Source: an uncultured Clostridia bacterium
GTDB taxonomy: Bacteria > Bacillota > Clostridia > Christensenellales > UBA1242
NCBI GenBank assembly: GCA_944332185.1
Contig: CALVJJ010000008.1
Location: forward strand, 1-46,999
Reading direction: 5' to 3'
DNA: 46,999 bases
The notes beneath the pieces were generated by a model that was given only the letters and a program-made list of their open reading frames with translations, was not told where the DNA came from and did not search any database. Shown here one piece after another: positions 26,929 through 39,256 of the stretch (the stretch's first letter is position 1; each line of letters starts with the position of its first letter). Made by a program: the position numbers and the translations under genes.

Positions 26929-29900
26929 ATGTTAACATTTTATGTTGGTCCTACATTGTCTGTTGCGAATCAAAAGATGCTAGAATGGGCAAAAAAAAGA
27001 AGAAGTGATGGTAGAAAACTGCTGATATTAACACCTGACCGTATGAATTTTTACATACAGTCTTCTATTTTTGATGTTTTAGAAGAAAAGTCACTATTTG
27101 ATGTCGAAGTCAACACCTTAACAAGAGTGGTACAAAAATATTTAAGGAATCATGCGACCGATCAAATGATTTTGAGCAAGCAAGCAGGCATCGGCATTAT
27201 GAAACACATTCTATTACAACATAAAGAAGATTTTGTAAGTTTTAGAAAAGCCTGTGAATATGATGGATTTGCTAGTGTAGTGTATGAAATGATTTGTATG
27301 TTCAAATCTTGTAATTTAAAACCACAAGACATTGCTGAATCCACACATCATGGACTATTGACACAAAAATTAAAAGAATTAGCTTTTATCTATCAAGAAT
27401 ATGAAAACTTTTTATCCAATCAGATCACCGATAGTTTTAATAGGCTTGATTTGTATTGTCAAATGATCAAAAAAGATGATTTTGTAGATACCGATATTTT
27501 ATGGTTAGGGTTTGAAGATGTGACACCTAAAATGATGAATATTGTGCTAAAAATGTCACAGCTTACACAAGTTGCTTTTTCTGTTAGTTATCAAAAAAAG
27601 CAAGAGACAAGTAATTGGCTATTATATCGAAGTGCACCCTATTTGACAATGGTAGATTATGCGATGAGTAAAGGAATTGCCACTCATCAAGTATGGTGTC
27701 AATACGAAGATAAAGACAAACAATTTTTATCGAAACATTTGTTAGGAGTATCTTCTAACAAGTATGAACTTCAAAATATGAAATATACAATACTAAAAGC
27801 CAATTCTAGAAAAGAAGAAATAGAGTATGCTTTAAAAGTGATAGGATTGCAAGTCGTAAAAGGACAAGCAAGTTATGATGATTTTTCTCTTATCCTTTCG
27901 CAATTTGATCATGATGAAAAAGAAGTGGAAAATATAGCAAAAAGCTGTCAAATTCCTTTGTATATAGATAAAAGTATATCTTTTATAGAACATGGATATG
28001 TACGCATGGTATTTGGATTACTAGAACTGCTATCTTCTACCATGGAGTTAGCAAAATATTTTGCTATCATAAAATATCCAATATTTTCTGTTTCTAGAGA
28101 AAATATAGAAAAAGTAGAACAATGGGCTTCCTATAATGGATACCAATATATGAGTTCTGCTGTGGAAAAGTACATAGAAAGTGAAGGAATGGAATCATCG
28201 ATGATCTCTTACTTTCAACTTTTTAAAAACACAAAAGAAAAGTTGGATCATTCTTCTACATTTCAAGAAAAGACAGATATTATCAAAACCCTTTTAAATA
28301 CAGTAGGGTATGTGTCTTTTTTGCAACAAAGACAGCAATGGCATCAAAATCAAAAAGAATATGAATTAGCAAGAACGACTGGACAACTATATCAAAAATG
28401 GGAAACTTTATTTCAAGAACTAGAAAAAGTACTTGCTACGACTCCTTGTACCACAATAGAATATGTACGAATTCTTAAGTCTGTAGCCACAGATATGACC
28501 ATTAGTTTACCACCTGTTACACATCATAGTGTAAAAGTTTACAATCTAGACAAAAGTGAAATCACACCTACAAAATATATGTATTTTATAGGTGTGAATG
28601 CAGGGTGTTTTCCTACTTTATCCCAAGATAACGGGATTGTGACTGATGTGGAAATGTCGCAATTAAGCTATGCAAAACAATTATCTCCTACCATTGCTCA
28701 ATTAAATGAAAGAAGCAAAAGAAAATTATTGAATATCTTGTTGACATCAAACCATGTTGTTTTATCTTATGCATCATCTGATGAGCAAGGGAATGAATTG
28801 TTGCCTGCAACAGTTATTGATCAATTACATAGTATGTGTAATATTGCTATACAACCTATATCTTCCAAAATGGATATTGGTGCTATTATTCATTTAGAAG
28901 ATAAAGAACTGCTAGCTTTTCATAGTTTTTCTCATACGTTGGCACGTAATGTCCTTGCAAAATTAGTAACTAGCCAAACAGGGCAAAAATCAGAATTGGT
29001 ATGTTTATCTGTACTCAATCAACTTTGTCATCAGCAACAATATCTACAACAATATTATGACCCGTACAAAAGACAACCAATTCACAATGCATTTTCTTTA
29101 TTTTATCCAAATCATACATCAAGTGTTAGCCAATTTGAAAAATATTTTTCTTGTCCATATCAACATTTTGTGCAGTATGGACTAAGATTGCAAGAGAATC
29201 TGGATAGTTCTATTACGAGTAGAGAATTTGGGGATATTCTGCATTTGTTTTGTATGAAATTCTTATTGTGTATGCAAAAAGAAAAAGATCAAAATTGGGA
29301 TATATCTCAAAAAGCAATTCGTATTTTAGATGAAATTTTAAAAGAGGAAAAATATCAAAGATTTTTACGTGATGAACGAAATTTTTATGCAACGAATAGT
29401 TTGTATAAAGAAGTAGTACGTATTGCACAATACATGGTGCAAGAGCGTCAACATAGTCAATTTGTTCCAGTTGTTTTAGAAGGTAATTTTGAAAAAGATG
29501 CCTTAAAAATCATAGATCAAAATTATGAAATATCTTTAAAAGGGAAAATGGATAGAGTAGATAGAAAAGATGGTGTATTTCGAATTGTGGACTACAAAAC
29601 AGGATCTGACACCTTTTCTTACACTGATGTGGCAAGTGGCAAAAAGATTCAATTACTTATCTATGTGTTGGCTTATCAAAAACAATCTCAAGCAATGCCA
29701 GTCAGTGCTGTATATCTACCAATACGCAATACCTTTGTCAAAGAAGAACAAGGATCATATAAATTTGATGGATTGATACCAGACACAAAAGAAATGTTGA
29801 TTGACATGGACAATAGACTTTCTGCCAATAACTATGCAAGTACTATCATAAATGCGAGCACTGATAAAAATGGGCAACTAACAAAAATACATGACTTTAT

Positions 29901-30150
29901 GATCTCGGGGAAAGAATTAGAACAGCTATGTGATATTGCTTATCAAAAAATCAAGCAGGCTTTTCATGAGATTTGTCAAGGGAATATTACACCAAACCCT
30001 TTAAATACTGCAGGTAAATGTGTGTGTGATTATTGTCAGTATTTGCCTATGTGTAAATTTTCAAAATATAAAGGAGATCAAGAAAGAGTCGTTCAAAAAC
30101 AAAATTTGCAAGATTTGTTGCCAAAGGAGGATCAAGATGAAACCAACTAA
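26929..30150 (+). CDS. addB: ATP-dependent helicase/nuclease subunit B, Walker A lost
   Basis: Partner of AddA in the double-strand-break resection complex that feeds recombination. The 1073-residue protein has the AddB order: degenerate helicase N-terminus (LLILTPDRMNF, VEVNTLTRVVQKYL), helicase-like middle (VYNLDKSEITPTKYMYFIGVNAG) and a C-terminal RecB-type nuclease (GKMDRVDRKDGVFRIVDYKTG, KIQLLIYVLAYQKQ). Cysteines for the 4Fe-4S cluster are present: one in FEKYFSCPYQHF and CDYCQYLPMC near the C-terminus. The position that holds GRxGSGKT in many AddB proteins reads VGPTLSVANQ (6-15), so ATP binding is not expected. SD AAAGGAG. Overlaps addA by 14 bases. Confidence 0.92.
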   Translation: MLTFYVGPTLSVANQKMLEWAKKRRSDGRKLLILTPDRMNFYIQSSIFDVLEEKSLFDVEVNTLTRVVQKYLRNHATDQMILSKQAGIGIMKHILLQHKEDFVSFRKACEYDGFASVVYEMICMFKSCNLKPQDIAESTHHGLLTQKLKELAFIYQEYENFLSNQITDSFNRLDLYCQMIKKDDFVDTDILWLGFEDVTPKMMNIVLKMSQLTQVAFSVSYQKKQETSNWLLYRSAPYLTMVDYAMSKGIATHQVWCQYEDKDKQFLSKHLLGVSSNKYELQNMKYTILKANSRKEEIEYALKVIGLQVVKGQASYDDFSLILSQFDHDEKEVENIAKSCQIPLYIDKSISFIEHGYVRMVFGLLELLSSTMELAKYFAIIKYPIFSVSRENIEKVEQWASYNGYQYMSSAVEKYIESEGMESSMISYFQLFKNTKEKLDHSSTFQEKTDIIKTLLNTVGYVSFLQQRQQWHQNQKEYELARTTGQLYQKWETLFQELEKVLATTPCTTIEYVRILKSVATDMTISLPPVTHHSVKVYNLDKSEITPTKYMYFIGVNAGCFPTLSQDNGIVTDVEMSQLSYAKQLSPTIAQLNERSKRKLLNILLTSNHVVLSYASSDEQGNELLPATVIDQLHSMCNIAIQPISSKMDIGAIIHLEDKELLAFHSFSHTLARNVLAKLVTSQTGQKSELVCLSVLNQLCHQQQYLQQYYDPYKRQPIHNAFSLFYPNHTSSVSQFEKYFSCPYQHFVQYGLRLQENLDSSITSREFGDILHLFCMKFLLCMQKEKDQNWDISQKAIRILDEILKEEKYQRFLRDERNFYATNSLYKEVVRIAQYMVQERQHSQFVPVVLEGNFEKDALKIIDQNYEISLKGKMDRVDRKDGVFRIVDYKTGSDTFSYTDVASGKKIQLLIYVLAYQKQSQAMPVSAVYLPIRNTFVKEEQGSYKFDGLIPDTKEMLIDMDNRLSANNYASTIINASTDKNGQLTKIHDFMISGKELEQLCDIAYQKIKQAFHEICQGNITPNPLNTAGKCVCDYCQYLPMCKFSKYKGDQERVVQKQNLQDLLPKEDQDETN

Positions 30151-33100
30151 AAATCAACAACAATTTTTAGATCAACATCAAAGCAATGTGTTAGTTTCTG
30201 CGAGTGCTGGTTGTGGAAAAACAACAACTATGATTCAAAAATTGATACAACTCATCTTGCAAGAAGGTATTAAAGTAAAAGAATTACTGGTAGTAACCTT
30301 TACCAATGCTGCTGGGGCAGAAATGAAGCAAAAACTGTATAAAGCTTTGTACCAAACAATTTTGCAAGAGGATCTAACTGAAGATGAAAAAAATGCATTG
30401 ATTGATCAGTTGGAAGATATAGGACAAGCAGATATTGGAACATTACATAGCATCTGTAAAAAAATTATCGAAAAATATTTTTATACGATTGATATGGATC
30501 CACAGTTTGTCATCATTGAAGGCAACGAACAACAATATTTATTGACAAAAGCTGTTCAAAATGTATTATCGTCTATGGATCACCATGATACAGTTTTTGA
30601 AAACTTGTATGAATATTTTAATAAAAAAAGAAAAAATGAATTGTTCATGAATACTCTTATACAATTATATGGGTTTTTATCTTCAAAAACAGATCAAAAA
30701 GAATGGGAGACTTATATTCTGGATCATGTATATGTAGAAGATATGGAACATAGTGTTGTGATACAGTATTTGTTAGAATATTTTTTAGAAAAATTCGAGG
30801 CACTACTTTTAAATGCACAAAAACTTTATGAAGAAAGTGTGATATTGGGTTTAGAAAAATATCAAAATTCACTTTTAGATGTTATACATTTTCTAAAAGA
30901 TATTCAAGGTGTGACCTCCATCAAAGTATTAGATCAAAAAATACAGGCATTAGATACGAAGTCTATTCGAGTAAGAACTCCTAAAAATTTGGATCCAGAC
31001 TATATAGATTTTGTGACAACTTATCAAGAATTCATTGGAGAAACTAAAAAAGTAAACTGGGATAGTGTACGTGGAACACTAGCAGGTTACAAAAAATATG
31101 TACAACTAGAAAAAGATAAAATTGATTTTGATGTAATGCAAGAGCAAACCAAACAAGTAAAAGTATTAGTGCAAAAACTATTTGAGCTAGAAGATAAAGT
31201 AAGTCAAGAATATCAGCGATTGAAAAAAGATAGAAATGGTTTAGATTTTAATGATCTGGAACAAAAAACCTTAGAAATTCTATCTTATCCGGAAGCTCAA
31301 AAAGAAATTATGCAATCGTACAAAGCCATCTTTGTAGATGAATATCAAGATATCAATGAAGTGCAAGAAAGTATTATCACTAGACTTAAAACAAATGTGA
31401 ATTTGTACATGATTGGTGATGTCAAACAAAGTATTTATGGGTTTAGGCATTGTACACCTACTATCTTTTTACAGAAAGCAGAACTTTTTCAATTAGATGG
31501 TAAGAAAAACGTTTTATTAGGTCTAAACGATAATTTTAGAAGTCATAATAATATTTTGGAATTTGTGAATGCTGTTTGTAAAAAGCTCATGACCAAGAAA
31601 ACGATTGGGATTGACTATGAAAAAGAGAGTATGTTACAAAGTGGGAATAATGCACAAAAAACACCACAAGACCAGAATGTGATTTTACATATCATAGAAA
31701 AAGATGATCTCGAAAAAGATGATGTGATTCGTTCACAAGCTAAAGCTGTTATGAAATATATTGTGTCAAACATTGGGAAACCATATTTTAATATTGCTAC
31801 CCAACAATATGAAACATTAGATTATAAACATTTTGCAGTGCTTACTAGAAATAAAACTGAACTTGTGGAAGAAATATATAATTTGTTGACAGAAAACAAT
31901 ATTCCTGTGTCAGCAAGTTTTAATTCCTCTTTGTTTCATACAGAAGAAATAGGGACACTGGTTGCATTTTTAAAAGTGTTACAGAATAGTCGAGATGAAA
32001 TATCTTTGGTATCTATATTGACAAGTCCTATGATTCAATGTACCGAAGATGAGTTAGTTATGATCAAACAAGATCCTAAAAAATCATATTATGACAATAT
32101 GAGAACGTATCAAGGGGAAGATCAAGTGACTAAAAAATTACAGCAACTATGGTCTTTGCTAGAGACTTATCGTGAAAAATTACAGCACAAAACAGTGGTA
32201 GAAACACTACAAGATCTAATACGACAATATGATTTGGAAAATTATTATGGGACTTTACCAGATGGTATCAGTCGAGTGAATCGTATTAGATTATTTTTAA
32301 ATATTATCAGCAACGATAGTACCAAGTATGCACTGGAAAAAGTGGTGGAATATATTGAGTTGTTGTCTAGTCAAGAAAAATTTGAGATTTCGGTGGCAAC
32401 ACAGGAAAATGCAGTACAAATGATGACAATGCACAAATCCAAGGGATTAGAGTTCCCTTGTGTCATTCTAGCAGGATTGTCCACGAATTTTAATGAAGAT
32501 AGTGCCAGAAAGGAATTGGTGGTATCTAATAGATTTGGTATTGGACTTCGATGTCGAGATATGAATAAAAGAACAGAAAGTAATCATATTATTCGTAGTG
32601 CTTGTTTGTTGCATACGATTGAAGAAGAAAGAAAAGAAGAAATTCGACTTCTTTATGTAGCTATGACGCGAGCAAAAAACACTCTTATTATGATAGGGTG
32701 TAAAAAAGCAAATCAAACTATTATCAAACAACCTTTACAGTGTAGAAGCCATTTGGAAATGATTCTCTCTACGATTTCAGTAGCAGTACAAGAGAATTTT
32801 TCTCATCAAAAGCAGATCACTATTACACTGGATCAAAGTACACTTACCATTCAAAATGAGAAAAAAGAAGAAGACGAAGAGTTTTTGCAAAAACAACAAA
32901 AACCAATTCTACCAAATTATGATCATGACCTTTATGAAAAATTACATACCTTGTGTGTACAAAATGATGAACTGGTAGAAGAAGATCCGATTGCTTTAAA
33001 AAATACTGTGAGTCAAATGCTTATGGACGAACAAGAGGATTATACACAGGTGATAGAAACACCTACATCTTTTGCTATTTCGGAAAGTAGTATGGCAACA

Positions 33101-33601
33101 GTTGATGGTAGTCAACTTGGTACAGCATATCATAAAGTCATGGAAAAGATGGATTTTGATTTTGGTCAAAATGCACAAAAAATTGTAGAGCAATTATATG
33201 CCTCTGGACAAATAAATTTGCCAATAAAAAATCAAATAAATATACAAAAAATAGAAAGAGCAGTTGTGCAAATTAGCCAGTTAATTACACCAGATAGTCA
33301 AGTATATAAAGAAGCACAATTCATGTATAAAGACAAACATTGCAACTTGGTCAAAAATAGTACAAGAACTGATGCGATTTTAATACAAGGTATGGTGGAT
33401 TTGTTTATAAAACAAGGGAATATAGGCATTTTAGTTGATTATAAAACCAATAAAAATATTTCTCCAGATGACCTAAAAAAGAAGTATGCCAAGCAACTAG
33501 AACTGTATGCTCTAGCAATTAAAGAGGCATATCATTTGGAAAAAGTGGAACAATATATTTACTCTTTTGAATATGAAAAATTGTTAAAAGTATCCTCGTA
33601 A
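30137..33601 (+). CDS. addA: ATP-dependent helicase/nuclease subunit A
   Basis: UvrD-like 3'-5' helicase with a C-terminal nuclease, acting with AddB. The 1154-residue protein shows Walker A ASAGCGKT (22-29), motif Ia VTFTNAAGAEMK, Walker B FVDEYQDIN, motif III GDVKQSIYGFRHC, motif V MTMHKSKGLEFP, motif VI RLLYVAMTRAKN, and the nuclease motif GILVDYKTNK near the C-terminus. The Walker A Cys replaces the usual Ser (AGSGKT), a mild change. SD AAAGGAGG lies inside addB, and the start ATG at 30137 overlaps the last codons of addB, a coupled pair. A much longer upstream start would lie deep in addB and is rejected. Confidence 0.96.
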   Translation: MKPTKNQQQFLDQHQSNVLVSASAGCGKTTTMIQKLIQLILQEGIKVKELLVVTFTNAAGAEMKQKLYKALYQTILQEDLTEDEKNALIDQLEDIGQADIGTLHSICKKIIEKYFYTIDMDPQFVIIEGNEQQYLLTKAVQNVLSSMDHHDTVFENLYEYFNKKRKNELFMNTLIQLYGFLSSKTDQKEWETYILDHVYVEDMEHSVVIQYLLEYFLEKFEALLLNAQKLYEESVILGLEKYQNSLLDVIHFLKDIQGVTSIKVLDQKIQALDTKSIRVRTPKNLDPDYIDFVTTYQEFIGETKKVNWDSVRGTLAGYKKYVQLEKDKIDFDVMQEQTKQVKVLVQKLFELEDKVSQEYQRLKKDRNGLDFNDLEQKTLEILSYPEAQKEIMQSYKAIFVDEYQDINEVQESIITRLKTNVNLYMIGDVKQSIYGFRHCTPTIFLQKAELFQLDGKKNVLLGLNDNFRSHNNILEFVNAVCKKLMTKKTIGIDYEKESMLQSGNNAQKTPQDQNVILHIIEKDDLEKDDVIRSQAKAVMKYIVSNIGKPYFNIATQQYETLDYKHFAVLTRNKTELVEEIYNLLTENNIPVSASFNSSLFHTEEIGTLVAFLKVLQNSRDEISLVSILTSPMIQCTEDELVMIKQDPKKSYYDNMRTYQGEDQVTKKLQQLWSLLETYREKLQHKTVVETLQDLIRQYDLENYYGTLPDGISRVNRIRLFLNIISNDSTKYALEKVVEYIELLSSQEKFEISVATQENAVQMMTMHKSKGLEFPCVILAGLSTNFNEDSARKELVVSNRFGIGLRCRDMNKRTESNHIIRSACLLHTIEEERKEEIRLLYVAMTRAKNTLIMIGCKKANQTIIKQPLQCRSHLEMILSTISVAVQENFSHQKQITITLDQSTLTIQNEKKEEDEEFLQKQQKPILPNYDHDLYEKLHTLCVQNDELVEEDPIALKNTVSQMLMDEQEDYTQVIETPTSFAISESSMATVDGSQLGTAYHKVMEKMDFDFGQNAQKIVEQLYASGQINLPIKNQINIQKIERAVVQISQLITPDSQVYKEAQFMYKDKHCNLVKNSTRTDAILIQGMVDLFIKQGNIGILVDYKTNKNISPDDLKKKYAKQLELYALAIKEAYHLEKVEQYIYSFEYEKLLKVSS

Positions 33602-33619
33602 AATAAGAGGATATTTTTT
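33591..33619 (+). terminator. Intrinsic terminator after addA
   Basis: TATCCTC / GAGGATA stem followed by TTTTTT. The 5' arm lies in the last codons of addA. Confidence 0.85.
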
Positions 33620-33648: not shown

Positions 33649-33677
33649 TTGGTAATTATAATAGATTGTGTTATACT
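33649..33677 (+). promoter_or_regulatory. SigA-type promoter for the membrane coiled-coil gene and tdk
   Basis: TTGGTA (33649-33654), 17-base spacer, TATACT (33672-33677). Confidence 0.7.
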
Positions 33678-33739: not shown

Positions 33740-35950
33740 ATGGAAAATTTTATGCTGGGAGCTTCTGATGTTCATGTATTCCAATTAGTTGCCGAATTTT
33801 TAGGTAGATTGATGAATATCATTACCATGGAGTATTTGCTATATGGAGCAGTGGGATTATTAGTTTTGTTATGGCTCATATCCATAATTAGAACAAGACA
33901 TTCTTATGAGCTTCGTATGGTAAAATCCTTAACAAAGATCAATAAATATCTTCAAAAAAATCCATATATTAAAGAAGACAACTTGATCGAATTCAATAAT
34001 AAAATGAAATCTGTACCACAGACATTACGTTATTGTTGGCAAGAGTATATGTTAAACCGTGACAAATTACCAAGTGAGTATATGAATGTCAGTAATTGTA
34101 TAGATCAACCAAGTAAGACAAGTAGTTATACTGGAACAGTAAGAAGTTGTAAATTATTTACCATTATTCTTGCTGTGGTAAGTTTCTTATTAGGAATAGC
34201 ATCAGTAGGGATCGAATCCCCAATTCCTAATTCCAATATTTTTTCCGGCAGTATTTCTTCTGTCATTGTCAATATCTTTGTGAGTGCAATTATTCCGGTA
34301 TTGATTTTGACTTTTGGGTATTTGTTCGTAGTCTTTTTGAATGCAAGACAATCAGCATTGGTTGCTGATTTATACTATACATTCCATGAATTCCAACGCA
34401 GTATTGACAAAGCAAGTGCAAGTTTACCGGATTTTATTGATTATGAACTTTTGTTTACCAAAAAGGAAATCAAAAATGGAATTCCAGTCTTACAAGAATA
34501 TTTGGAAAAAGTTGCTTTACAAGAACAAAAGCAAAAAGAAGAAGAATCTTTGGCTCCTGTGCAATATGAAGATTATGAATTTGAAAAATTGGGCGTAGAT
34601 AATTCTTTGCTTTTAGATAGAGCTATGAAGGAAAGTGAAAAATATCTTACCATTCGTAATAATTTGAATGATCGTATTAAAGATGTTGAGAAAAAACAAT
34701 ACACACTAAAGAAAGCATACGATGAACAAACAAAAGATTATGAAAGAAGGATTCAAGCAAGTAATGAAAGCATTGCACAACTTAATGAACAAATGCAAAA
34801 TACAACGAGCAAAATTGAATCCAACTATATAAGAAAACGTATCAATGATGAACAACAAAGATTGCAACAAGTGTTATCTGATCAAGACAATGCCAATCAA
34901 AGATTCCAAAAAGACCAAGGCATGATGCAAGATGAGATTGACAAATACAAAGAAGACATTGAAAAGAGAAAGACACTTGCACAAGATGCAATGATTGCTG
35001 AATGTAAAACCTATGTCAATAAAGTATATGAAAAAGTAAGTCGTGTAGCATTAGAAAAAATAGAACCATATACACAACAATTAGAAAAGCAACAAGTAGA
35101 ACTCCAACAACACATTACGGATTTGGACAACCAAGCACTTGAAAAAATGGAAGTAATGAAAGCTATGGAAGAAAAGTTGGCTGATCTAGAACATGAGTTC
35201 AATGTAAAAACAGCAGAAATTGAAGCTATAAAATCTGTTAAAGAATATTTTACTTCAGATGAATTTTTCAAACGTGTTGCTTTGCAAAAGAAAGAATTGA
35301 AAAATTATGTCAAATCAGGAAAAGGGGAAAGGCCACTTCTTGCTGAAAAAGAATATGATGGCGCTTTAGCTACTGAAGACCTTGATCAAGTATATGCAAA
35401 TAATACGGAAGTAGAGAATACTTCTTTAGATCAAGCAGAAAGTACAGTATCTACTGACTATGAAAAAGTCATTGCAGATCTAAAGACTCAAAACGAAACT
35501 TTGCAAAAAGAAAAGGAAGAACTAGAAGCTGAAAAACAAAAAGTTAGTGACCAAAACGCACAATTACTAGAAGAAAAAACACAACTAGTAGATGAAAAAG
35601 AAAAAGTAGAAAAACAAAACCAAGAAGTGCTTGCACAAAATGAAAAATTGGAAAATGCAAATGCGACATTAACCAAAGAACAAGAAAAATTAAAAAAGAC
35701 CATTGATGAAACGTTGACAACGATTTCGCAACAAGAAAAAGAAAAGGTGCAAGACAAACGTGTACAAGATCTTAAAAATATTAAGTTAAGTCATATCCCA
35801 TACACAGGGAAATACACAGTAACTACTTCTTCTAGAAAAACTAAAAAATCCAATACACTAAAAACCAGTCTTAACAAATTATTACAAACTGTAGAAAGAC
35901 TCAATGATACAAAAACAGTAACAAAGAATGCAAAGGTAAATAAAAAATAA
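33740..35950 (+). CDS. Three-helix membrane protein with long coiled-coil tail, ExbB/TolQ-like topology
   Basis: A 736-residue protein, not recognised by a diagnostic motif. Predicted membrane helices lie at about 32-51, 138-158 and 175-200, with about 87 residues between the first two and a short loop between the last two. This is the topology of ExbB/TolQ/MotA proton-channel proteins, and TM3 followed by FLNARQSALVADLYYTF recalls the ExbB segment after TM3. From about 295 to 660 it is an almost continuous coiled coil (KEKEELEAEKQKV, NEKLENANATLTKEQEKL), and the end is basic. A channel unit plus a long cytoplasmic rod is the design of ZorA of Zorya defence, of similar length, but no ZorB/ExbD-like partner is nearby. 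Its stop overlaps the tdk start (TAATG), so the two are coupled. Alternative: a structural membrane/coiled-coil protein with no channel role. Confidence 0.75.
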   Translation: MENFMLGASDVHVFQLVAEFLGRLMNIITMEYLLYGAVGLLVLLWLISIIRTRHSYELRMVKSLTKINKYLQKNPYIKEDNLIEFNNKMKSVPQTLRYCWQEYMLNRDKLPSEYMNVSNCIDQPSKTSSYTGTVRSCKLFTIILAVVSFLLGIASVGIESPIPNSNIFSGSISSVIVNIFVSAIIPVLILTFGYLFVVFLNARQSALVADLYYTFHEFQRSIDKASASLPDFIDYELLFTKKEIKNGIPVLQEYLEKVALQEQKQKEEESLAPVQYEDYEFEKLGVDNSLLLDRAMKESEKYLTIRNNLNDRIKDVEKKQYTLKKAYDEQTKDYERRIQASNESIAQLNEQMQNTTSKIESNYIRKRINDEQQRLQQVLSDQDNANQRFQKDQGMMQDEIDKYKEDIEKRKTLAQDAMIAECKTYVNKVYEKVSRVALEKIEPYTQQLEKQQVELQQHITDLDNQALEKMEVMKAMEEKLADLEHEFNVKTAEIEAIKSVKEYFTSDEFFKRVALQKKELKNYVKSGKGERPLLAEKEYDGALATEDLDQVYANNTEVENTSLDQAESTVSTDYEKVIADLKTQNETLQKEKEELEAEKQKVSDQNAQLLEEKTQLVDEKEKVEKQNQEVLAQNEKLENANATLTKEQEKLKKTIDETLTTISQQEKEKVQDKRVQDLKNIKLSHIPYTGKYTVTTSSRKTKKSNTLKTSLNKLLQTVERLNDTKTVTKNAKVNKK

Positions 35951-36543
35951 TGCCAAAATTATATTTTAAATATGGTGCAATGGGTAGTTCTAAGACAGCT
36001 CAAGCACTTATGTGTCGATTCAATTATCTACAAAAAGGGTATAGAGTATGTTTGGTAAAACCTTCGATTGATACAAGGTTTGCAGATGGAGCAACACAAG
36101 TCATTAGTCGAATTGGAATCAGTGCTCCTTGCGTGACATTTTCTGCTACCCAAGATCTATATGCATGGTATTTAAAACAACAGAAACATAACCCATTTGA
36201 TGTGTTGATTGTAGATGAATGTCAATTTTGTACCAAGGGTCAGATCAATGATTTGAAGCAAATTAGTAAAGATATTCCTGTACTTTGCTATGGATTGTTG
36301 ACTAATTTTAAGACAGAATTATTCGAAGGTAGTAAAAGATTGGTAGAAATAGCCGATAGCCTTATGGAAATCAAATCTGTCTGTCGATGTGGAGCAAAAG
36401 CAACGGTCAATGCTCGATTGGTCAATGGCCATGTGGTAAATCAAGGCAATGAAATTGAAATCGGTGCTGAAGAAAAGTACGAAGGTATGTGCTATTGGTG
36501 TTATCAAAACAAATTGAAACAAGAAAAAGACTCTCATCAGTAA
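35950..36543 (+). CDS. tdk: Thymidine kinase
   Basis: Phosphorylates thymidine in the salvage route to dTMP. The 197-residue type II enzyme has the P-loop GAMGSSKT (9-16), the DECQF motif with the catalytic Glu at 90, the lasso region with MEIKSVCRCGAKAT, and the second zinc pair CYWC near the C-terminus. The Gly usually found just before the P-loop Lys is Ser here. The start codon shares bases with the upstream stop (TAATG); the nearest purine-rich site is AAAGG about 13 bases upstream, so translation is probably coupled. A terminator follows. Confidence 0.95.
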   Translation: MPKLYFKYGAMGSSKTAQALMCRFNYLQKGYRVCLVKPSIDTRFADGATQVISRIGISAPCVTFSATQDLYAWYLKQQKHNPFDVLIVDECQFCTKGQINDLKQISKDIPVLCYGLLTNFKTELFEGSKRLVEIADSLMEIKSVCRCGAKATVNARLVNGHVVNQGNEIEIGAEEKYEGMCYWCYQNKLKQEKDSHQ

Positions 36544-36617: not shown

Positions 36618-37376
36618 CTATGGTAAAGATGGTGTGCTAAACTCCATCAGTTCTTTTAATTTGCCAAACATTCTGGCTTTGTCAATTACAATAGAACTAA
36701 TACGACTATTTTCTTTTATTAAGACATCACCGTTGCTAGCAAGAATATTTTTCTTTACAATTCTATTGATTAAAAAATTGTAATTTGCAATGGTCTTATT
36801 TGGTAAAATAGTTGTATGATTACTAATAGTTTGTGTTGCTGGTTGTGTTACTTCTTGAATGGTGACTTTTTGTTCGGGTACATATTCAAAATCAATATGT
36901 TTTCTTGGACGGAATTGTGATCTATGTAAAGTGGTCTCTTTTTCTTTGTAGAGTATGGTTTGGTGGGTAAAACATACAATATTGTCTAGTGGTAGTATTT
37001 CGTTTTTGTCATTGATAAAATTAACAATTTTGTATCCTTTTGATAAAAGAACATCTTTAATATACCCATAGTTATTGCCATAAACATCTATAATTGTGTC
37101 AAAAATAGGATTATAATAGCCACTAATTTCAAGATCCAAATTTTCATAAGGTTGCATACAAGAAGTGTTTTTGATCGTGACGACATCATGACCTAATTGA
37201 TAAATATGTTTCATAGGAATCACAAAACGATGAAAATTTTCTTCTTCATTCACGACAATCATGTATGTTGCTTTTTTTGTTTTGTTACTAAATAATATAT
37301 TGTTAATGACACCTACCTGTTTCATGTCATACAGACTGAATATTTTTTTACCAATTTCATTGCTAATATAGTACAT
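36618..37376 (-). CDS. PRC-barrel domain protein
   Basis: A 252-residue protein. Residues 1-80 (MYYISNEIGKKIFSLYDMKQVGVINNI, then KATYMIVVN) match a PRC-barrel domain, a small beta-barrel found in photosynthetic reaction centre H subunits, RimM and YlmC-type proteins. A second barrel-like unit follows (IFDTIIDVYGNNYGYIKDVLL, DKNEILPLDNIVCF; about 95-150). A polar Thr/Gln-rich linker (about 175-200) leads to a helical C-terminus. The start at 37376 is chosen from GGAGG 6 bases upstream; an in-frame start at 37421 has no SD. The binding partner is unknown. A TATACT at 37404-37399 (reverse) has no good -35. It is divergent from the SPFH gene. Confidence 0.75.
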   Translation of the reverse strand: MYYISNEIGKKIFSLYDMKQVGVINNILFSNKTKKATYMIVVNEEENFHRFVIPMKHIYQLGHDVVTIKNTSCMQPYENLDLEISGYYNPIFDTIIDVYGNNYGYIKDVLLSKGYKIVNFINDKNEILPLDNIVCFTHQTILYKEKETTLHRSQFRPRKHIDFEYVPEQKVTIQEVTQPATQTISNHTTILPNKTIANYNFLINRIVKKNILASNGDVLIKENSRISSIVIDKARMFGKLKELMEFSTPSLP

Positions 37377-37488
37377 ACTTGCCTCCAACGTTAGTAAAAG
37401 TATATTCAATCTCAAAATCAATTAGAACGACGCTAGAAAGGTTTTGTCAGTCTTTTATGGGAATTTTATGTTTTACGATGTAAAAAAT

Positions 37489-37517: not shown

Positions 37518-37534
37518 AGGTGCGAGGTAATGCT

Positions 37535-39004
37535 ATGGGTATATTTTCAAAAATTTGGGAATTCTTTGTAAGTCCTGTAGTTTTGAAGAAAGAAAAACCG
37601 GAAGAATTACTTGTTCCAGTTCGTTTCAAATCTTCCAGAGTAAAACTCAATAAAACCATTATTGTGCCAGAAAATTGGTGGCTTGTTTTTGCTGTCAAAG
37701 ATAAACCTTGTGATATTTTACAATCCGGTCACTATAAAGCCAATGAAAATGATTTGCCTATTACGACAAGAACGAGTGGGGCTATGAAAAGAACAAAAAA
37801 AGGAAATGTTTTTCCTTGGATCAAATGTTCTGCTTATTATATTCGTCAAAATGCTGTAGTTGGACATCGTTTTCGAGCTGGTATGCCTTTTATTGTCAAG
37901 ACAGAGACATTTGGAAGAATTAAAGGTAAAATAGAAGGGGTGTGTAATGTTCGTGTTACCAATCCAGAATTGTTTTTAAAATGTTTATTCGTAGAATATT
38001 TTCGTATGAATCGAAAAAGTGGTCTTAATTTTGTGCGAGATCTAGTAGTAGATGAAATCAATGCTCTTTTAGAACACGAAGAAGATCATTTTGAAAAAAT
38101 GTTGTTAGATGCAGAGTATAGAAAAGAAATTGTCAATCATATTATAACTGCAAGATTACAAAAAATAGGTGTTTTAGTCGAGGATATTACCATTGAAAGT
38201 ATGATACTATCGAAAAAAACACAAAAAATAGTGAGTGCTTATCTTGCAGAGAACCAGATGCGTTCTGCACAAGTAGAAAAAGTCGTAGCAGCAGATGGAA
38301 CTATTGTAAATACTTTAAATGAACAAGCAGTAGACGACTTGATTGAAGAAGCAAAAGAAAGTAAGACAGCGTCTGCAACAGAAGTGAATCCAACAACTTC
38401 TTTAGAGGGAAGTAGTAGACCTCAACTATATGATCAAACACAACAAAATGATTGGTGGGTGCAAGCACAGCCTATAGAAACAAAAGACAACGGTGTACCA
38501 GAAAATATTGTAAGAAGAAGTAGTATAAGTGAGGAACAGTTGTCTAATCCTGCTACTTTTGATGCTTTACCAAATCGAGATAGAAAGATTGTGGATTTTA
38601 CGGTGTCTAATACAGAGGAAAATGGAAATCCAAGATCACAAGATAATGACATGGATACCTTACTTACTCAAAATCGAAGAGGGGACAGATTACAGAATTT
38701 TTCAGTGGATACAACACCCTCTTTAGAACAATCTCAATGGCAATCTTTAGATAGAGGAAGAAGACAATCGTTTGATTTTACACAAGGGAATGAGAGGGAT
38801 AGTCTAGATAGGTTAAGAAGAGATAGAAGTCAAAATTTTGATTTTACCCTTTCTGGAAGAGCAAACCAGAATGATACAACACAAAGTAAGACAAAAGATA
38901 TTTTTGCTGGAACTACAGATAAAAAACAATGTAAATATTGTGATAAACTCATTGGAATTGAATATCAATATTGCCCATTTTGTGGCTTTAAACAAGATAA
39001 ATAA
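37535..39004 (+). CDS. SPFH/band-7-like protein with C-terminal zinc ribbon
   Basis: A 489-residue protein. The N-terminal half (about 30-250) reads as an SPFH/virion-core-protein-like domain: IIVPENWWLVFAVKDKPCDIL, GHYKANENDLP, GMPFIVKTETFGRIKGKIEG and RVTNPELFLKCLF, then a helix-rich stretch with ILSKKTQKIVSAYLAENQ. Residues about 270-450 are polar, disordered-looking and hold four degenerate F-D-F-T repeats. The end is a zinc ribbon, CKYCDKLIGIEYQYCPFCG. B. subtilis YdjI-like proteins have this plan. There is no membrane segment, so it probably associates with a membrane or partner through the SPFH part. GAGG at 37524-37527 places the start at ATG 37535, not at the upstream GTG. DUF1858 follows 12 bases later. 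Confidence 0.8.
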   Translation: MGIFSKIWEFFVSPVVLKKEKPEELLVPVRFKSSRVKLNKTIIVPENWWLVFAVKDKPCDILQSGHYKANENDLPITTRTSGAMKRTKKGNVFPWIKCSAYYIRQNAVVGHRFRAGMPFIVKTETFGRIKGKIEGVCNVRVTNPELFLKCLFVEYFRMNRKSGLNFVRDLVVDEINALLEHEEDHFEKMLLDAEYRKEIVNHIITARLQKIGVLVEDITIESMILSKKTQKIVSAYLAENQMRSAQVEKVVAADGTIVNTLNEQAVDDLIEEAKESKTASATEVNPTTSLEGSSRPQLYDQTQQNDWWVQAQPIETKDNGVPENIVRRSSISEEQLSNPATFDALPNRDRKIVDFTVSNTEENGNPRSQDNDMDTLLTQNRRGDRLQNFSVDTTPSLEQSQWQSLDRGRRQSFDFTQGNERDSLDRLRRDRSQNFDFTLSGRANQNDTTQSKTKDIFAGTTDKKQCKYCDKLIGIEYQYCPFCGFKQDK

Positions 39005-39016
39005 AAGGAGAAAGAT

Positions 39017-39256
39017 ATGAAAAAAGTAAAATTAACTAAAGATTATACGAAAAAAGGAAAATCATTCAAAAAATCTATGACAATCGGGGAAGCATTGCAA
39101 CTAGATAGCAGAGCAGCTACCGTTTTTATGGGTTTTGGTATGCATTGTTTTAGTTGTCCTGTAAGCCAAATGGAAACATTGGAAGAAGCAGCTATGGTGC
39201 ATGGTGTTGATGTGGATTTTGTACTAGAAAAATTAAATGAATTATTAGAAAAATAA
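39017..39256 (+). CDS. DUF1858 domain protein
   Basis: A 79-residue protein. From residue 21 on it matches DUF1858, the small domain also found with ScdA/hybrid-cluster-protein-associated disulfide proteins: MTIGEALQLDSRAATVFMGF, then GMHCFSCP with the CxxC, and TLEEAAMVHGVDVDFVLEKLNELL. The first 20 residues are basic and extra. A thiol-redox or metal role is suspected for the family; nothing is proven. SD AAAAGGAG lies 7 bases before ATG. It is second gene after the SPFH gene and probably co-transcribed. A terminator overlaps its stop. Confidence 0.88.
   Translation: MKKVKLTKDYTKKGKSFKKSMTIGEALQLDSRAATVFMGFGMHCFSCPVSQMETLEEAAMVHGVDVDFVLEKLNELLEK

Follow-up and report, generated by a model that had tools for sequence, protein, structure and literature searches.

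ZorA of the type I Zorya system (PDB 8qyd, 8vvn) consists of a three-helix membrane domain that continues into a long C-terminal cytoplasmic rod. In the published ion path of this system, an Asp of ZorB faces a ring of Ser/Thr in ZorA (PMC11890865). The window analysed here, a stretch of 46,999 nucleotides from an uncultured Clostridia bacterium, encodes a 736-residue protein that shares both of these parts with ZorA, its best PDB match by sequence profile as well as by fold, and that shares topology, helix spacing and fold with ExbB/TolQ. Unlike ZorA, the family to which it belongs has no ZorB that could be found and does not keep the GT and TM3 Ser positions, while many of its orthologues carry tails with AT-hooks and the gene keeps its position behind addBA and is not part of a Zorya operon. 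Compared with ExbB/TolQ, the window protein comes without ExbD/TolR and without a match to Pfam MotA_ExbB (PF01618), has gained a rod, and is found in a Clostridia host. It is a divergent homologue of the ZorA/ExbB/TolQ/MotA ring subunits, and what is new is a partnerless variant of this known fold, with addAB as an unexpected neighbour and AT-hook tails as an unexpected feature of its relatives.

The open reading frame is preceded by an AAGGAG site and is present as a single copy in its own 962-kb genome. Kyte-Doolittle analysis places hydrophobic segments at residues 32-50, 140-158 and 172-190, close to the helices at 32-51, 138-158 and 175-200 for which a preliminary description of this DNA had claimed ExbB/TolQ spacing. 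Three such segments, with a TM1-TM2 spacing of approximately 75-105 residues, were found in nearly all of 36 orthologues, and the pattern is thus not due to chance. An outside N-terminus (assigned by inspection of the charged flanks), three helices and a long cytoplasmic TM1-TM2 loop, the arrangement of an A-subunit, were seen across 37 proteins. TM1 residue 41 (33860-33862) is Asp or Glu in 16 of 73 homologues, and P186 is conserved within the TM3 helix of the family. The AlphaFold model of the C-terminal part contains helices at 289-354, 358-505, 550-677 and 699-723. The helical rod of the preliminary description is hence borne out, while the basic end attributed to it is mild: the last 40 residues have a net charge of +10, with a z-score of only 1.4 against the expectation from the protein's own composition. 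The full-length protein matches no Pfam, NCBIfam or PADLOC family. An SMC- or MukB-like identity was dismissed, as the matches to TIGR02168 (E 0.72) and JetC (E 0.026) reflect coiled coil only.

Table 1. Features of the gene and its surroundings (nucleotide positions in the window).
Feature	Position	Strand	Basis or remark
addB, conserved upstream neighbour	26929..30150	+	ADDB_N 2.1e-25, synteny
addA (helicase-nuclease), conserved upstream neighbour	30020..33601	+	Pfam, synteny
Terminator-like hairpin downstream of addA, with T-rich sequence behind it	33586..33618	+	fold -13.2 kcal/mol, z -4.7
Promoter-like TTGGTA-17-TATACT, TG before second hexamer	33649..33677	+	motif match (weak evidence)
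Whole gene: ZorA/ExbB-fold membrane domain and long cytoplasmic rod, 736 residues	33740..35950	+	ORF, orthologues
TM1, residues 32-51, N-terminus predicted outside	33833..33892	+	hydropathy, AlphaFold; cytoplasmic flank carries positive residues RTRHSYELRMVK
Cytoplasmic loop motif, residues 93-128: P93, R97, W100, R107, P111 S112, C120, P124	34016..34123	+	near-invariant columns
TM2, residues 139-158, without the ZorA GT(F)xGL ion-path motif	34154..34213	+	hydropathy, alignment
TM3 and cytoplasmic continuation as one predicted helix, residues 172-228	34253..34423	+	AlphaFold
Post-membrane motif E-LFTKKEI..IPVLQEYLEK, residues 236-257	34445..34510	+	invariant columns
First rod section, residues 289-505: two helices, conserved break at 355-358	34604..35254	+	AlphaFold, conserved residues
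Second rod section, residues 550-677	35387..35770	+	AlphaFold
Mildly basic C-terminal end containing the short helix 699-723 (KTSLNKLLQTVERL)	35828..35947	+	orthologues have AT-hooks or other basic tails in the same region
tdk thymidine kinase, outside the conserved unit	35950..36543	+	PF00265 1.8e-34

The AlphaFold model of the N-terminal domain (pLDDT 81.5, pTM 0.71) was compared with the PDB. The top four Foldseek matches are ZorA (2.0e-4 to 7.4e-4), followed by ExbB/TolQ, and the upper list consists almost entirely of MotA, TolQ, ExbB and ZorA. Superposition on ZorA by VIA gave a Z-score of 11.7 (rmsd 4.1 over 202 residues), with ExbB, TolQ and MotA also scoring high; since by the program's own caveat a Z-score below ~13 for helical bundles may reflect a common arrangement only, weight was placed on agreement with the sequence searches. 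In these, ZorA was again the top match of a PDB profile search, with E-values that are individually weak (0.016 with A2, 0.018 with A3). It was also the most frequent PADLOC match, with 7 of 73 members matching one ZorA1 model and 3 another (best 8e-4). When A3 was compared directly by hhalign to three true ZorA sequences, the result was weak (probability 4.7%, E 0.0085). The corresponding 95.5% for A4/A7, a comparison that includes L203/L204, is not independent because these were found with A4.

A class-wide profile search returned two strong matches outside the order, L203 (1.3e-14) and L204 (2.2e-9), from another Clostridia family. Both are ZorA-like proteins of 506 residues with three helices and a coil, and in these strongest sequence relatives outside the order the GT motif is absent too. 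In contrast to the window family, the L203 gene is followed by one matching the ZorB model at 4.1e-66 and carrying an OmpA domain, with type IV pilus-type genes (T2SSE and T2SSF families) downstream of the pair (L203:2744-10902); the L204 locus (L204:1-9356) has the same arrangement of ORF sizes as this pilus-adjoining locus. The membrane helix of the L203 ZorB-like protein lacks an Asp. Among the remaining class-wide matches (E 1e-5 to 1e-3), which for the most part are partial or belong to unrelated membrane proteins, L211 is the exception, a true MotA_ExbB protein (PF01618 3e-7). The next gene in that locus (L211:7356-11421) encodes a SpaA-domain protein to which a ZorB-like membrane helix (residues 3-52, E 4e-4) is fused, and a Wzz/ParA-type ATPase comes further downstream. 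The ExbB/TolQ/ZorA fold proposed in the preliminary description is thus supported by structure prediction, in which the three-helix core is matched best by ZorA, by remote ZorA profile matches that are weak but consistent, and by the transitive link through L203/L204.

The absence of a ZorB/ExbD/MotB partner from the window, noted from the outset, extends to the whole genome, where ExbD, MotB_plug and ZorB gave nothing over cut-off or at a significant E-value. Among 89 relatives, ExbD was over cut-off in none and MotB_plug in two, neither of them an f1 genome; across 35 f1 genomes the ZorB model returned nothing better than E 0.009. No B-subunit with a membrane Asp, as expected of a 5:2 motor, was found in the genomes searched, and a small, very divergent one-helix partner could escape such searches. 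Two further families of the order do have canonical ZorA/ZorB pairs (L215:176-2699 and L217:116-2109), with the motifs GILGTF or GLFGTF and SYSDM/SYTDM.

Equivalents of the ZorA ion-path residues were read off the HMM alignment and counted by hand. ZorA T147 corresponds to A145 of the window protein, a position with Ser/Thr in 22% of 73 rows and 30% of 28 diverse rows, and ZorA S184 corresponds to approximately L190/T191, where the respective figures are 1-4% and 0-7%. The Ser/Thr ring that surrounds the Asp in TM2/TM3 of 5:2 motors is thus not found, TM2 being partly polar one helical turn away, with semi-conserved Ser/Thr at positions 141 and 148 (58-59% of 73 rows). Lacking both a B-subunit partner and the conserved Ser/Thr positions, the window protein is probably non-conducting and its family, judged by sequence, probably not a motor; the Ser/Thr frequency at 141 and 148 makes the loss of conduction likely rather than proven. 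The channel reading of the preliminary description is hence not supported. Membership of Zorya was likewise rejected for want of partner and ion path, and neither ZorB nor the effectors ZorC/ZorD or ZorE lie beside the gene, whose neighbours are addB-addA, PRC, SPFH and other genes.

In the first 36 orthologues and in most of 80 named loci, the family gene comes immediately after addB-addA and has the same orientation, with a median gap to addA of ~100 bases (100 loci); it has moved away from addBA in a handful of loci (e.g. L104, L108, L109, L125 and L131). A terminator-like hairpin is present in 17 of 100 addA gaps against an expected 3.4, and the gap of the window is one of the 17. Promoter-like sites are no more numerous in the window's region than in shuffles. 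The TAATG overlap of one base with tdk is real, although the functional coupling to thymidine kinase read into it in the preliminary description is not upheld, as the conserved neighbour is addAB: not one of the 80 named loci has tdk next to the family gene, and in the compared f1 genomes that have both genes the two are found on different contigs. A partnership with tdk was rejected because no other locus has tdk adjacent, the arrangement being private to the window genome. A survey of homologues for neighbouring tdk or ExbD/MotB-like genes found neither conserved, and addB-addA instead. Genes for a PRC-barrel protein (36618-37421, reverse strand), an SPFH/zinc-ribbon protein (37520-39004, forward strand) and a small conserved 79-residue protein (39017-39256, forward strand) recur beside the cluster in many f1 genomes. 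At L045, L048, L116, L117 and L120, addA is split into two ORFs of ~910-934 and 245-249 residues.

The N-terminal part was matched in 79 of 148 related genomes, with family members among uncultured Clostridia including Christensenella sp. UBA1242 and Candidatus Caccopulliclostridium. A three-helix protein also follows addA in some other families of the order (e.g. L223, L224, L229, L237 and L251), while further families of the order, and the f1 genera g7 and g15, have no such gene after addA.

The tails are very variable. Tails with GRP repeats of the AT-hook type were counted in 29 of the 72 complete long-type orthologues and also seen in several short-type ones; 198 GRP triplets were found, compared to 2.7 in shuffles. 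Eight orthologues were scanned with the Pfam AT_hook model and six exceeded its cut-off (best 4.7e-19), and the orthologues share the RGRP-core repeats of AT-hook DNA-binding proteins (PF02178). Only nine of 846 other ORFs carry the motif, of which eight were judged members of the same family and one lies outside it. Placed on the tree, the AT-hook label requires three changes, which may be gains or losses. Other clades have RGR-rich or Lys-rich tails. In contrast to AT-hook DNA-binding proteins, the window protein itself has no AT-hook by the Pfam model, nor does any member of its 22-member clade; with its tail only mildly basic, we infer any DNA binding by the window protein from the family. 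To our knowledge, no protein is known that combines AT-hooks with an ExbB-fold membrane domain, and no description of an AT-hook ExbB protein or of an AddAB-linked ZorA-like protein was found in the open-licence literature.

Taking the computed fold, homology and synteny together with the orthologue AT-hooks and the lack of a detectable partner, we infer a ring, loss of conduction, DNA tethering and a link to the work of AddAB. In this model, the three-helix membrane domain would assemble into a ring, by its fold most likely a pentamer, which without B-subunit and Ser/Thr positions probably does not conduct ions. The cytoplasmic helices would form a rod, and since this ends in AT-hook arrays or Arg/Lys-rich tails in many orthologues, it most likely holds DNA at the membrane. 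Several rods held by one ring would bring their tails into contact with DNA next to AddAB, and DNA held in this way would probably benefit the helicase-nuclease encoded just upstream. There is about an even chance that this describes the protein: a ZorA-like former motor subunit without a partner, which probably forms rings and has a rod that anchors DNA to the membrane next to AddAB. The hairpin between addA and the gene, the absence of AT-hooks from the window tail and its clade, the weakness of the direct ZorA matches, the missing MotA_ExbB match, the semi-conserved Ser/Thr of TM2 and the families and f1 genera without the gene after addA count against this reading.

The same hairpin, the short helix in a mildly basic window tail and the variability of tails in the family would also fit a scaffold in the membrane that has a structural role and a coiled-coil rod, and whose basic tails touch not DNA but membrane, RNA or acidic proteins. 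We regard this as unlikely, though worth serious consideration, given that AT-hook arrays with highly significant Pfam scores are found in many orthologues and are almost absent from neighbouring ORFs, and that the position after addBA has lasted. A working ZorA-type ion-driven motor, with an unrecognised B-subunit and a rod that signals to AddAB as ZorA is thought to signal to nuclease effectors, appears improbable: no partner was found in the f1 genomes, the polar ring position of TM3 is lost, and the wide f1 presence at one locus has the look of housekeeping rather than of a mobile defence island. This holds even though the closest relative is ZorA, positions 141 and 148 retain semi-conserved Ser/Thr, and the conserved neighbour is a helicase-nuclease, as are some Zorya effectors. 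That the three-helix match represents a common helical arrangement, with no true homology to ZorA/ExbB, is very improbable. The VIA caveat and the weak single-match E-values would allow for it, but sequence and structure searches both lead to ZorA, nearly all of the upper Foldseek list belongs to the motor-ring family, and the strong L203 match is to a protein encoded beside a ZorB-like gene.

The DNA-tether reading can tentatively be taken further, to a motor ring subunit that has shed axle and ion path and possibly become a membrane-bound, probably five-armed tether, which would present DNA ends or the nucleoid to AddAB lineage-wide in these small-genome Clostridia. A 2022 review of 5:2 motors named ExbB-family proteins without ExbD in Gram-positives as an untested question (PMC9389320). 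The family described here provides a large, defined set of such ExbD-less ExbB-fold proteins, with the concrete prediction that the tail binds DNA. If true, a motor-ring fold would have been kept for its shape after loss of the motor, and would physically connect the AddAB recombination machinery to the membrane.
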